Shown here: one piece after another, positions 4,922 to 24,400 of the stretch
Layout: the number at the start of each line of letters is the position of its first letter
How positions within the stretch are numbered: the first letter of the stretch is position 1
Source of the DNA: an uncultured Candidatus Saccharibacteria bacterium
GTDB taxonomy: Bacteria > Patescibacteriota > Saccharimonadia > Saccharimonadales > Saccharimonadaceae
NCBI GenBank assembly: GCA_947304335.1
Contig: CAMZAW010000005.1
Span: forward strand, 1 to 32,499
Direction of reading: 5' to 3'
Length of the DNA: 32,499 bases
The notes under the pieces: model-generated
Seen by the model: the letters and a program-made list of their open reading frames with translations, nothing else
What the model was told of the DNA's origin: nothing
The model's database searches: none
Translations under genes and position numbers: made by a program

Positions 4922-4995
4922 GGCACTGTGGCGGAGTGGTTACGCAGCGGTCTGCAAAACCGCGTACACCGGTTCAATTCCGGTCGGTGCCTCCA
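4922..4995 (+). tRNA. tRNA-Cys (anticodon GCA), CCA encoded
   Basis: ggcactg/cggtgcc acceptor, anticodon loop ctgcaaa in gcggt/accgc stem, T-arm accgg-ttcaatt-ccggt, U73 discriminator, CCA. Confidence 0.93.
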
Positions 4996-5021
4996 TTTTT
5001 TTATGAAATAAAAAAATGGAG
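4991..5021 (+). terminator. Perfect 13-bp inverted repeat overlapping the tRNA-Cys 3' CCA; possible terminator/processing hairpin
   Basis: ctccattttttta-tgaaa-taaaaaaatggag. Confidence 0.5.
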
Positions 5022-5128
5022 TCACCGGGCTGCGCCAACGGTGCCTCCATCTTGAAAAAAAGCACCGGGCTTCGCCAACGGTGCCTCCATCTTGAAAAAA
5101 GCACCGGGCTGCGCCAACGGTGCCTCCA
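5022..5128 (+). repeat. Three tandem 28-bp hairpin repeats resembling the tRNA-Cys acceptor/CCA tail
   Basis: tcaccgggctgcgccaacggtgcctcca (5022-5049), gcaccgggcttcgccaacggtgcctcca (5062-5089), gcaccgggctgcgccaacggtgcctcca (5101-5128); the terminal cggtgcctcca equals the tRNA-Cys 3' end. Confidence 0.85.
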
Positions 5129-5145
5129 AATTCTTGAAAGTGTGC

Positions 5146-5151
5146 TATAAT
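5146..5151 (+). promoter_or_regulatory. Putative extended -10 (TGTGCTATAAT) for the candidate ncRNA
   Basis: TGTGCTATAAT immediately after the tRNA-tail repeats; no clear -35. Confidence 0.5.
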
Positions 5152-5157
5152 AAAGTT

Positions 5158-5460
5158 ATAAGAAAAGAGCCTCTAGGAAGCTCTCTTCTGTTGGGGATCT
5201 AACTAGTGAAAGCTAGTTAGATTTTTTCTTCGGTGCGGATTTACGCCTGGGAAGAAGAACGCATAGCAGATTAAACTGTATGGTCATCTAGCCTCCTTTC
5301 CGGCGACCTAGCTACCCTAGAAAAGCCGTTTAATGGCCACCTCACACCGCACGAACTGTATGGCTCCTGCGTCTTGGTCCATTAAAGCTCCGGTCCCAAC
5401 CACTGTCATTATTAGCAAGCCGGAAACAAAAATACAACCCCCTCCACCCCAGTTAAGCGC
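5158..5460 (+). ncRNA. Candidate structured RNA of unknown family (boundaries and strand tentative)
   Basis: Non-coding gap between tRNA-Cys repeats and the NUDIX gene, with a promoter-like box and several long-range complementarities (GTGCGG/CCGCAC, ATTAAAC/GTTTAAT, TTTAATGG/CCATTAAA, TTTCCGGC/GCCGGAAA). Confidence 0.4.
5197..5227 (+). terminator. Intrinsic terminator/attenuator-like hairpin
   Basis: ATCTAACTAG-tgaaag-CTAGTTAGAT, 10-bp perfect stem followed by T run. Confidence 0.6.
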
Positions 5461-5465
5461 AAGCC

Positions 5466-6026
5466 TTATAGCCAGTTGGCGTAAGCGGCGACTAAATCAT
5501 CGTCAAGAAGTGGTTCTGGCAAATTGTCCAAACTAAAGAACCTAAGTTCAGAACTTTCGGAATTTGCCATCAAATCCAAATCTTTTGTGTCAACTAATAC
5601 CAAATACAAATTCGAGTTGTTATAACAAACATCACCGTTTGGATAAACACGACGGCGGCCTTGGCCAGACACTACGTCAATTAAAAATAGGGAATCAGGC
5701 GAAACTTTGATGCCAGTTTCTTCAAATAATTCGCGCACGGCGGTGTCGCGCAAATCTTCGCCCAGCTCTTGGCAGCCACCAGGCAAGCACCACTCGCTGT
5801 TGTCGGAACGTTTTTCTAGCAAGATTTCACCGTTTTCATTTCGCACAATTACAGAAGAGCCAGTCTGGATAAACGGAATGTGTGAAATCCTTTCGTCAAG
5901 CGCCATTCTAAATAGCACCGGATAGCCGCCGTAGTTCGCACTTAAGTTTAAGATCTCGTCTTCGCTCAAATTTTTTATAATTTCCACAAATTCTTCGTGG
6001 GAGTAGTCACGCATTTTCTTGTACAT
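5466..6026 (-). CDS. NUDIX hydrolase
   Basis: ORF 186 aa; Nudix box GGCQELGEDLRDTAVRELFEETGI. Confidence 0.92.
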   Translation of the reverse strand: MYKKMRDYSHEEFVEIIKNLSEDEILNLSANYGGYPVLFRMALDERISHIPFIQTGSSVIVRNENGEILLEKRSDNSEWCLPGGCQELGEDLRDTAVRELFEETGIKVSPDSLFLIDVVSGQGRRRVYPNGDVCYNNSNLYLVLVDTKDLDLMANSESSELRFFSLDNLPEPLLDDDLVAAYANWL

Positions 6027-6646: not shown

Positions 6647-9600
6647 ATGCCAGAAGAGCTAGATGAGAATTCGAATACCCAAGAATCGGCAAACCAAGCG
6701 GTAGACCAACGGCCACTCGGTGCCAAGATACTAACAATATCTGGCTTTCGCGATCGGCAAAGCAATGTAACTAAGAGTGGCAATCACCTCAATATCGTCG
6801 ATTCGTCTTATGAACGCGCTAAGGCCGGTGGCGAAAAGCTCATCGGGCAAAAAGATGAACGTCGAAACGATGCATATCTTCAGCGTCTTAGTAGAATTAT
6901 CGAAAAAGGTGGCAATGAGCTCGAAAAGCAACTCTGGCGGCGATCCATTAATAATGATCTACTCGTAAAATACGAAAATATCACCGAATCATATTGGGAT
7001 GCCAAGCGCCAAGAACTTAGAGATAATCAGCTGGGAGGAGTTGAGCTAACTGAAAGCCTAAAAAAGCAGTACTGGCAAGAAGAGCGCAAGCTCCAGCAAC
7101 AATCTCTTGAAAAATGGGTTAATTATCTCGGCGACGAGAATTGCCCGTACCCACTATGGTTTAAGGTTTATGCATGGGACGGTATGACTAAAATGGGGGT
7201 TTATAACAAGGCTAAGGTTTGCTATGAAAAACGCAACGAAACAACTGTTGCCCCATATCCATACCCAGATGCAGAAGTCCTAGCTAAAACATTCGAGGTT
7301 GTAAATCAATACTTTGGCAACGGCCAAAAGGAATTCTTTACCGAGGAGGGGGAACGCAATATTCCGCTCGAAGAACTTGTGCGGACGGGAAATTTCGCCA
7401 AAATCTTTAACGGCATTCAGCGAGATATCGCTCCAATTTTGCAACCACCAGAAAACCCAGAAGAGGTTGATGGTGAATGGGTCGAATATGCCCTCGGCGA
7501 GGAAGACGACATTGCCCTCGCCGCCAGAGGTACTGGTTGGTGTGTGGCCACCCCAGCCGTAGGTAGACATTACCTTACTTATGGAAAATATGGCCACGTC
7601 AATTACGAAGATTCCGTTGATGGCCATGACGGGCTTAAATCGAAGTTTATCCTCTTTCATTTAAGAGATCCAGAAACTGGCAAATTCTCTAAGAGTGCCT
7701 GCGCTTCTATTCGCCTAGATTTAGACGGCAACGTTGTGGAAATTTCCGGCACAGAAAAAGGTCAGGCTCTTGCAGACTCCATTGTTCCAACCGTAGAAGA
7801 AAAAGCTAAATCCTTACCAGGCGGCGAAGAATTCTTGCCAAAATTCGCCGACAAAAACGCCCTAATCGAATTAGACCACAAGATGCAACGCGGGGAAGAT
7901 ATCACAAAAGAAGAACTACGCTTTATTTGGGAGTTAGATAGGCGAATTGAAACTCTTGATACCTATAATACCAACGACCCACGTATTGGGGAACTTCGTG
8001 AAAAATATAACTTAGAATATGCCTTTGAGGCAGGAATAAGAGTGGATGATATTAATAATCTAGTGTCTCACCTCGAAAGTGGCGATATTATCAACAATCT
8101 CGACACTCTTCTTGGCCATGACGCTGATATCGATAATCTAGTGTCTCACCTCGAAAGTAGCGATATTGCCAACAATCTCGACACTCTTCTTGGCCATGAC
8201 GCTGATGTTGATAATCTAGTGTCTCATCTCGAAGGTGGCGACATTATCAACAATCTCGACACCCTTCTTGGCCATGACGCTGATATCGATAATCTAGTGT
8301 CTCACCACCTCGAAAGTGGCGATATTGCCAGCAATCTCGACGCTCTTCTTAATCACGGCGCCAATATTGATAACTTAGTATCTAAGCTCCATAGCTACGA
8401 TGTTGCCAGCAACCTCGGCACTCTTCTTGGTCATGACGCCGATATTGATAACATAGTATCTAAGCTTGATAGCTACGATATTGCCAACAGTCTCGGCATT
8501 CTTCTTAAGTATGACGCCGATGTCAGTAATCTAGTGTCTCATCTCAAAAGTAGCGATATTGCCCGAAATCTCGACACTCTTCTTGGCCATGACGCTGATA
8601 TCGATAATCTAGTGTCTCACCTCAAAAGTAGCGATATTGCCAACAATCTCGATACCCTCATCAATCACGGCGCTAAAATTGATATCGACAACCTAGTGTC
8701 CAAGCTCGAGGGTTACCAGATTGCCCGCAACCTCGGCGCTCTTCTTAACCATGACGCCGATGTCAGTAATCTAGTGTCTCATCTCAAAAGTAGCGATATT
8801 GCCCGAAATCTCGACACTCTTCTTGGCCATGACGCTGATATCGATAATCTAGTGTCTCACCTCAAAAGTAGCGATATTGCCAACAATCTCGATACCCTCA
8901 TCAATCACGGCGCTAAAATTGATATCGACAACCTAGTGTCCAAGCTCGAGGGTTACCAGATTGCCCGCAACCTCGGCGCTCTTCTTAACCATGACGCCAA
9001 TATCGACAATCTAGTGTCCAATCTTTATAGCGACGATATTGTCCGCAATCTCGATACCCTCATCAACCACGGTGCTAAAATTGATATTGACAACCTAGTG
9101 TCCAATCTTTATAGCGACGATATTGCCCGCAATCTCGGTACTCTTCTTAAGCATGACGCCAACATTGATAACCTAGTGTCTCATCTCAAAAGTAGCGATA
9201 TTGCCAACAATCTTGATACCCTCATTAACCACGGTGCCAAAATTGATATTGACAATCTAGTGTCTCATCTCAAAAGTAGCGATATTGCCCGAAATCTCGG
9301 TACTCTTCTTAATCATGGTGCTAAAATTGATATTAATAATCTACTACTAGCATATAATTTCAGCAGCTACGATATTGCCAGTAGGCTCGACACTCTCCTT
9401 AATCACGGCGCCGATGTTAATATCCTTGTATCTAAGCTCGAGAGCTACCAGATTGCCAGCAGACTCGACACTCTCCTTAATCACGGCGCCGATGTTAATA
9501 TCCTTGTATCTAAACTCGAGAGTTATGATATTGCCTGCAATTTTGATATCATCATTAACCACGGCGCCAATATCGACATTGACAAACTAGTGTCTGAGCT

Positions 9601-10159
9601 CGATAGCTACGATATCGTCTACAATCTCGACACCCTCATTAGTCACGGCGTCAAAATTGATATTAATGACCTTGTATCTAAGCTCGATAGCGACGACATT
9701 GCCCGCAATCTCGGTACCCTCATCGACCACGGCGCCAATATCGACATTGACAAACTAGTGTCTGAGCTCGATAGCGACGATATTGCTCACAATCTCGATA
9801 TCCTCATCTATTATGGCGCTATAATTGACATCGACAAACTAGTATCTGAGCTCGGAAGTGGTACTATCGTCAACAATCTCGACACCCTTCTTCATTATGA
9901 CGCCGATATTGATAATCTAATGTCTAATCTCGATAGCGACGACATTGCCCGCAATCTCGACATTCTCATCGACCACGGCGCCAAAATTGATATTGATGAC
10001 CTAGTATCTAAGCTCGAGGACTACCAGATTGTTCGCAATCTCGATGCCCTCATCAACCATGGCGCTAAAATTGATATTAATGAACTAGTGTCTGATCTCG
10101 ATAGTAGAGATATTGCCGAAAATATCGACACTCTTCGCGCCCACGGTTGGAACGGTTAG
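6647..10159 (+). CDS. Giant solenoid-repeat protein: ~460-aa N-terminal region with GTGWCVA motif plus 26 copies of a 26/28-aa repeat
   Basis: Continuous 1170-aa ORF; repeat D-I-D-N-L-V-S-x-L-x-S-x-D-I-A-x-N-L-D-T-L-L-x-H-x-A counted by eye. Confidence 0.9.
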   Translation: MPEELDENSNTQESANQAVDQRPLGAKILTISGFRDRQSNVTKSGNHLNIVDSSYERAKAGGEKLIGQKDERRNDAYLQRLSRIIEKGGNELEKQLWRRSINNDLLVKYENITESYWDAKRQELRDNQLGGVELTESLKKQYWQEERKLQQQSLEKWVNYLGDENCPYPLWFKVYAWDGMTKMGVYNKAKVCYEKRNETTVAPYPYPDAEVLAKTFEVVNQYFGNGQKEFFTEEGERNIPLEELVRTGNFAKIFNGIQRDIAPILQPPENPEEVDGEWVEYALGEEDDIALAARGTGWCVATPAVGRHYLTYGKYGHVNYEDSVDGHDGLKSKFILFHLRDPETGKFSKSACASIRLDLDGNVVEISGTEKGQALADSIVPTVEEKAKSLPGGEEFLPKFADKNALIELDHKMQRGEDITKEELRFIWELDRRIETLDTYNTNDPRIGELREKYNLEYAFEAGIRVDDINNLVSHLESGDIINNLDTLLGHDADIDNLVSHLESSDIANNLDTLLGHDADVDNLVSHLEGGDIINNLDTLLGHDADIDNLVSHHLESGDIASNLDALLNHGANIDNLVSKLHSYDVASNLGTLLGHDADIDNIVSKLDSYDIANSLGILLKYDADVSNLVSHLKSSDIARNLDTLLGHDADIDNLVSHLKSSDIANNLDTLINHGAKIDIDNLVSKLEGYQIARNLGALLNHDADVSNLVSHLKSSDIARNLDTLLGHDADIDNLVSHLKSSDIANNLDTLINHGAKIDIDNLVSKLEGYQIARNLGALLNHDANIDNLVSNLYSDDIVRNLDTLINHGAKIDIDNLVSNLYSDDIARNLGTLLKHDANIDNLVSHLKSSDIANNLDTLINHGAKIDIDNLVSHLKSSDIARNLGTLLNHGAKIDINNLLLAYNFSSYDIASRLDTLLNHGADVNILVSKLESYQIASRLDTLLNHGADVNILVSKLESYDIACNFDIIINHGANIDIDKLVSELDSYDIVYNLDTLISHGVKIDINDLVSKLDSDDIARNLGTLIDHGANIDIDKLVSELDSDDIAHNLDILIYYGAIIDIDKLVSELGSGTIVNNLDTLLHYDADIDNLMSNLDSDDIARNLDILIDHGAKIDIDDLVSKLEDYQIVRNLDALINHGAKIDINELVSDLDSRDIAENIDTLRAHGWNG
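8511..8998 (+). repeat. Near-perfect 240-bp tandem duplication inside the repeat gene
   Basis: 8511-8758 is identical to 8751-8998 (period 240 bp = 80 codons = 26+26+28 aa). Confidence 0.95.
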
Positions 10160-13614: not shown

Positions 13615-13621
13615 CATCAAG

Positions 13622-13645
13622 AATGCTCCAAAAGAGCCTTTTTTG
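13622..13645 (+). terminator. Terminator after tRNA-Gly
   Basis: aatGCTCcaaaaGAGCcttttttgt. Confidence 0.7.
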
Positions 13646-13670
13646 TTGGCTAACTCTTAGGTCAAGCCAA

Positions 13671-13698
13671 CGAGAGTTAGAGGCGCTTCTACGCACCA
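13671..13698 (+). repeat. Partial copy of the tRNA-Gly 3' tail (T-arm to CCA)
   Basis: cgagagttagaggcgcttctacgcacca versus tRNA cgagagttagagtctcttcattcgcacca. Confidence 0.75.
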
Positions 13699-24233: not shown

Positions 24234-24278
24234 ATGATTGAATATAAAAGGAAAGGATAACGAATAATCAACAAAAAA

Positions 24279-24345
24279 GGAGAGGACGCTCGCAGAAGCT
24301 CGCTATCCGCCTACGGCGGGCGAACTCCTCGGAGTTCGCCTCTCC
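24279..24345 (+). repeat. Multi-hairpin palindromic element
   Basis: Outer GGAGAGG...CCTCTCC enclosing CCGCC-tac-GGCGG and CGAACTCC-tc-GGAGTTCG. Confidence 0.7.
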
Positions 24346-24358
24346 TGCAAAAATAATC

Positions 24359-24400
24359 AAAGAAATAAAAACAACCCTCGCGGGTTCTTTTTATTTCTTT
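24359..24400. terminator. Bidirectional terminator between the FISUMP gene and tRNA-Glu
   Basis: aaagaaataaaaacaaccc-tcgc-gggttctttttatttcttt, 19-bp stem with one mismatch. Confidence 0.8.

Follow-up and report, generated by a model that had tools for sequence, protein, structure and literature searches.

The window, by which we mean the whole stretch of DNA analysed, is one 32.5-kb contig (C5) of G000, a 74%-complete draft genome of 608 kb in 46 contigs. Its small size and its kin point to a lineage of the candidate-phyla (Patescibacteria-like) type. Its plus strand carries a tRNA-Cys(GCA) gene at 4922..4995 (identified by ARAGORN and matched by Rfam RF00005 at 63.4 bits) and, starting ~22 nt 3' of this gene on the same strand, an array of three short units (TRF: 5023-5128, period 39, 95% matches). 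Each unit ends with CGGTGCCTCCA, which is exactly nt 66-76 of the tRNA, i.e., the 11 nt comprising the acceptor 3' strand, U73 and CCA. Across the whole 608-kb genome, this sequence was found at 4985-4995, that is, in the tRNA-Cys gene itself as the donor of the tail, and at 5039-5049, 5079-5089 and 5118-5128 in units 1, 2 and 3, respectively, with no further copy and with zero matches for the reversed-pattern control. The positions of CGGTGCCTCCA and the TRF array confirm the preliminary description of three tandem units after tRNA-Cys, each with the tRNA tail, and both sequence and BLAST comparison uphold what it said of the spacers, the GGGCT(G/T)CGCC heads and the inverted relation ctccattttttta/taaaaaaatggag. 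The comparison of copy number among relatives that it proposed revealed the same Cys array with three units in G000 and G171, two in G178 and one in G163, and the array is therefore not an assembly artefact.

The end of the tRNA is joined to unit 1 by an A/T-rich inverted repeat, CTCCATTTTTTTAT / ATAAAAAAATGGAG (4991..5021, plus strand), which is evident from the sequence, from an inverted BLAST match at 4985-5027 and from pairing in the RNA fold. Unit 1 (5017..5049, plus strand; sequence and RNA fold) is a hairpin TGGAG.CACCG-GGCTGCGCC-AA-CGGTG.CTCCA, and units 2 (5062..5089) and 3 (5101..5128), likewise on the plus strand and nearly identical in sequence, are hairpins GCACCG-GGCTTCGCC-AA-CGGTGC and GCACCG-GGCTGCGCC-AA-CGGTGC, respectively, each followed by CTCCA. 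The head of the Cys units can be written as CCG-GGCT(G/T)CGCC-AA-CGG; in units 2 and 3, pairing is confined to GCACCG/CGGTGC plus GGC/GCC, with the AA unpaired. An A-rich spacer, TCTTGAAAAAAA (5050..5061, plus strand), which is a T-run on the minus strand, recurs in near-identical form at 5090-5100. When the tract 4996-5140 was folded as RNA, a free energy of -53.5 kcal/mol was obtained (z = -4.64), and 0 of 200 shuffles were as stable. The minihelix with a CCA end that had been envisaged earlier could be formed by units 2 and 3, as a short acceptor-like helix ending in U-CCA, but not by unit 1, in which pairing runs through the CCA (TGGAG-t-CACCG / CGGTG-c-CTCCA) and the CCA is not free. On the minus strand, each Cys unit represents a GC-rich hairpin, and those of units 2 and 3 are directly followed by six or seven T; in this they look like intrinsic terminators. 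We regard this reading with caution, since the position of the T-run adjoining each unit on the minus strand is not conserved in G171 and G178. Beyond the array, a convergent Nudix gene is located on the minus strand at 5466-6026.

Other features of the window include an RNase J gene at 9-2138 (Pfam PF22505, PF17770), ~2.8 kb upstream of the array, and a 1170-aa ORF at 6647-10159 with tandem repeats of ~78-84 bp (TRF 8048-10136), i.e., a repeat protein. Positions 5131-5230 exhibit a promoter-like TTGAAA..TATAAT followed by ~75 nt with two hairpins, the second having a T-run; this layout is kept in G178 with apparent compensatory changes, and the segment may possibly constitute a small RNA gene.

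The head of the Cys units belongs to a class, here designated class A, with the pattern CCGGGCT[GT]CGCCAACGG (≤1 mismatch), which was found at 41 places in 23 of 174 genomes of the same genus (reversed control: 0). Nearly all of these places are just 3' of tRNA genes, namely those for Cys, Met, Arg-GCG, Arg-CCG, Phe, Pro, His and Thr, and each tRNA-adjoining head is then followed by a copy of the tail of that very tRNA. The 5' arms of class A pair at 3.88 of 6 positions with the own tail versus 2.28 with the tails of other tRNAs, related copies being uncorrected for kinship. As the tRNA is the source of both strands, the complementarity of the arms cannot be taken as a sign of selection for pairing. 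Class A copies begin at CGG, which is preceded by GT in the tRNAs seen, and tRNA-Cys genes bearing GTCGG carry units more often than the others (8/23 vs 2/31, p = 0.012, kinship uncontrolled), which is suggestive only of GTCGG as a target motif. Copies are present at just 9 of the 53 tRNA-Cys loci examined in the genus (8 found by search, plus L153, whose copy contains an indel), so that the Cys array is dispensable. In G040, G050 and G013 (loci L014, L011 and L013), the element downstream of tRNA-Cys is of another, longer type with the core GGAAAG..GAACCGGGAACCGGGTC, and in G040 the tRNA tail is repeated exactly, as TTCCGGTCGGTGCCTCCA, at the end of this element.

For a genome-wide view, the 3' flanks of all 36 tRNAs in the whole G000 genome were read, counting as a cognate tail copy at least 10 exact nt of a tRNA's own 3' tail located at most 300 nt downstream. 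Such copies follow 18 of the 36 tRNAs, compared with 0.8% of non-cognate pairs, and precede none of them (0/36 upstream). This genome-wide pattern lends good support to the suggestion of the preliminary description that a tRNA end seeded the hairpins, and the search that it recommended for tail copies after other tRNAs yielded similar elements at about half of them, though CGGTGCCTCCA itself is confined to the Cys locus. The copies in G000 have sharply defined starts: 16 of them, representing 10 tRNA kinds, begin at nt 59, one base before the end of the T-loop, and another 6 begin at nt 66, where the acceptor 3' strand begins. Copies of 18 nt were found for Leu-CAA, Gln and His, and one of 17 nt for Ala-CGC. 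Cognate tail copies likewise follow 14 of 32 tRNAs in G178, which is from the same genus, and were detected in three genomes from other families of the order: G094 (12/33, most starting at nt 56-57), G060 (4/13) and G073 (2/7). In G034 they are rare (2/35), and few or none were detected in G064, G092, G219 and five further genomes from other parts of the phylum, with only 5-13 tRNAs in several of these samples.

The longer elements typically display the order tRNA-CCA, bidirectional terminator, partly inverted tail copy, GAACC..GGTTCG hairpin, one or more head hairpins and tail copy. Besides the Cys array, two elements of this kind reside in the window. The element after tRNA-Gly(GCC) (13615..13698, plus strand) consists of a terminator copy, a hairpin ending AAGCCAA/CGAGAGTTAGAG and a partial tail copy, ACGCACCA; in G178, no element is present at the corresponding site. 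The element after tRNA-Glu(TTC) (24275..24399, minus strand) contains a GCGAACTCC..GAGTTCGC hairpin, a CCGCCGTAGGCGG hairpin, a tandem-G.A hairpin TAGCGAGCTTCTGCGAGCGTC and the partial tail copy CTCTCC. The motifs recur at tRNA ends: all nine G000 copies of TAGCGA..GAGCGTC lie within 200 nt downstream of a tRNA, 14 of 44 genome matches to hairpins with tandem-G.A mismatches are located after tRNAs versus 0.39 expected (p = 2e-18, matches common to neighbouring tRNAs being counted repeatedly), and the same holds for 6 of 33 GAACC/GGTTCG hairpins versus 0.29 expected (p = 4e-7). The Lys and Leu elements, like unit 1, have their CCA engaged in pairing.

A further head type is encountered in G094 (L210-L239), where a structured element of ~90 nt, with the core GGTGA-stem-GCAAGG, a long stem and a small hairpin, has at least eight paralogues, no two of them after the same tRNA, and a scan of seven of the loci gave no match to any Rfam family. 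Eight of these heads were aligned by sequence and a structure was written from the same heads. Two-sided changes affect 17 of its 31 pairs, compared with 9.3 after shuffling, and the covariation score is 0.556 versus 0.200 for shuffled and 0.04-0.14 for slid controls. Structure therefore matters there, and, as judged from the alignment, it is constrained either as RNA or as single-stranded DNA.

Comparison of close relatives reveals that the elements change rapidly. The element at Gly-GCC is present in G000 and absent from G178, with the original trailer shifted to after the tail copy; two units at Asp are found in G178 and none in G000; Glu-CTC has an additional 78-bp unit in G178; a terminator module is inserted at Asn in G178; and the heads at Lys-CTT are swapped between G000 and G178. 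Head families turn over between lineages, and the tail copies of relatives have acceptor-strand indels by which the helix is disrupted. A route by which units may originate is suggested by G171 (Arg) and G181 (Met), where tail and terminator occur in duplicate and a hairpin head sits at the junction.

The plan of these elements resembles that of the tRNA-linked repeats (TLRs) of Escherichia coli, reportedly described by Egan and Landy in 1978 and by Rudd in 1999. The 22 E. coli units, distributed over ten loci, each terminate in 18-19 bp that exactly repeat the 3' end of the tRNA or rRNA lying upstream, and the tRNA-borne ones have been assigned no function (PMC8144298). When the MG1655 loci were put through the same pipeline as G000, the tail copies of the TLRs after tyrT/tyrV and argQ/Z/Y/V were found to start at nt 58 or 59; that of proK was read by eye. 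The elements in G000 resemble TLRs in that (i) both the Cys array and the elements found genome-wide are placed directly after a tRNA gene on the same strand, as TLRs are after a tRNA or rRNA gene, (ii) one to five tandem units are present per locus, three in the Cys array and one to three in its relatives, (iii) a unit ends in a copy of the 3' end of the gene that starts in the T-loop (nt 58/59 in E. coli; nt 59 most commonly in G000), and (iv) GAACC/GGTTCG and tandem-G.A hairpins are carried by E. coli TLRs (e.g., GCGAGCCACGAAGTGGCGAGT at proK) and by G000 elements other than the Cys units (e.g., GCGAGCACGAAGTGCGAGC at Lys-TTT). However, the Cys units possess an 11-nt tail instead of 18-19 bp, whereas other G000 tRNAs reach 18, and they lack the two hairpin types that other G000 elements have; in class A units, the Cys array among them, the tail is limited to nt 66-76 and the head to a minimal GGCTTCGCC. 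Moreover, the present elements are from a distant, small-genome lineage, are associated with about half of its tRNAs and have heads that vary by lineage. Rfam RtT (RF00391) matches the E. coli tyrT/tyrV and proK TLRs at 101-138 bits, with the arg TLRs below threshold; for the window no match was obtained at gathering, nor for the related loci tested at E up to 5-10, while the E. coli positive controls matched. On sequence grounds, the elements are TLR-like in plan yet outside the RtT family, and the Cys array is a reduced variant with an 11-nt tail. The likeness to the E. coli TLRs is one of plan and motifs and may reflect convergence rather than deep homology.

Several other explanations deserve consideration. 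REP/BIME elements, associated with RAYT (Y1) proteins, are small palindromic repeats at many loci with short GNA-type loops, a description that also fits the present elements; in contrast, they are not tied to tRNA ends and lack tail copies, whereas the heads here are largely confined to tRNA trailers, and no Y1_Tnp was detected in G000. More generally, the units could be integration scars or a miniature mobile element, with a recombinase targeting tRNA 3' ends and the tail copy representing an attachment-site or target duplication. Such an origin, which we consider unlikely, would fit the discrete units flanked by tail copies, the empty matching sites in sisters (Gly-GCC, Asp, one Glu-CTC unit), the class A start at CGG after GT with the greater richness in units of GTCGG-bearing tRNA-Cys genes, and the turnover of head families. 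The gain and loss of whole units between sister genomes sustains to this extent the mobile or att-site trace proposed earlier, but neither island-sized tail duplications nor, in most carriers, a dedicated recombinase, Y1 transposase or reverse transcriptase accompany it. Specifically, Y1 transposase is absent from G000, G171 and G094; a single tyrosine recombinase is present in G000, G171, G178, G094 and G060, and two are in G073; and reverse transcriptase (RVT_1) is absent from G000, G171, G178, G060 and G073, and present in G094 and G034. In this search, which covered the Y1 and tyrosine types only and an incomplete G000, no dedicated integrase or recombinase emerged, and dedicated mobility in the strongest carriers is not supported. 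Furthermore, orientation is constant, and the 5' arms fit the local tRNA beyond what one travelling element could bring. Mobile elements that integrate at tRNA 3' ends do duplicate a 3' part of the tRNA (PMC9897764), but are kilobase-sized and have an integrase, whereas the elements here span <200 bp and have none. Island-type integration was discarded given the lack of tail copies at island distances in G000. Reverse transcription halted at m1A58, an idea prompted by the 18-nt copies, was set aside as well: most carriers have no reverse transcriptase, and E. coli, which to our knowledge is devoid of m1A58, shows the same boundary. Other candidates were also dismissed: an antisense tRNA-like RNA made from the inverted arms would not form the T-stem, seven head matches in viral contigs all fell in GC-rich coding-like stretches (PGFANGG) and are attributed to chance, and phage records gave tRNA-Cys-like matches only.

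It appears similarly improbable that the units are processed to TLR small RNAs in the manner of RrA, RrB and RrF, for which the tail copy would be a 3' processing signal. These RNAs are encoded between the dual terminators of E. coli rRNA operons, arise from read-through of the first terminator and contain 18 bp copied from the 3' end of 5S, a proposed RNase E processing signal (PMC8144298). The published precedent of RrB (PMC8144298), the strong folding of the Cys tract on the sense strand and the covariation of the G094 heads would be in accord with this; however, the Cys units have only ~28 nt, and the G094 heads are without an Rfam family. RrA/RrB/RrF also differ in belonging to rRNA operons and in having been shown to be expressed. 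Neutral slippage, in which the chance duplication of a tail prone to hairpin formation was retained, would readily account for the freely varying copy number and for units 2 and 3 being near-identical, as recent tandem duplicates are, but leaves unexplained the same heads at many tRNAs, the fixed start positions, the covariation and the likeness to E. coli TLRs; we regard it as quite improbable. Finally, the earlier proposal that the units, through U73 and CCA, act as decoys or sponges of CysRS or of the enzymes that process tRNA 3' ends can draw on the acceptor-like helix that units 2 and 3 might form, but is hardly credible in view of the same head occurring after Met, Arg, Phe, Pro, His and Thr tRNAs, the involvement of the CCA in base pairs (unit 1, Lys and Leu elements) and the helix-breaking indels in relatives.

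What is observed, then, is that each unit joins a duplicate of the tail of its own tRNA (for Cys, nt 66-76) to a head common to other tRNAs of the genus and provided with a tail-complementary 5' arm, and that the same design recurs after about half of the tRNA genes, with units and head modules being gained, lost and swapped between sisters. We suggest that the Cys array is probably a minimal TLR-type element that originated by duplication and persists by virtue of hairpins, in the trailer or in single-stranded DNA, which punctuate transcription or processing. Units would arise through duplication of a tRNA tail together with its trailer, the junction being occupied by a hairpin head; they would then fold into stacked hairpins, either in the trailer or as single-stranded DNA, and might persist because these punctuate transcription or trailer processing. 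On the minus strand, the Cys units might stop the transcript of the convergent Nudix gene, and the fast turnover could reflect that the elements are modular and individually dispensable. A role in transcription punctuation or trailer processing is our best guess from the sequences at hand.

It is also conceivable, although we advance this only tentatively, that TLRs, far from being peculiar to enterobacteria, form a class of modular, structured elements that follows tRNA 3' ends across phyla, and that a common constraint drives their repeated gain, head swapping and spread; such a constraint might be exerted by a protein or RNase recognizing the tail copy, or by the chemistry of single-strand DNA hairpins. 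TLRs have been known since 1978, and here we encounter cognate, fast-changing TLR-like elements at about half of the tRNAs. The T-loop boundary and the tandem-G.A motif, common to E. coli and the present lineage, provide concrete features to test, and the lineage offers many natural presence/absence pairs between close relatives, which makes both the origin and the function of the elements testable by comparison and RNA sequencing.
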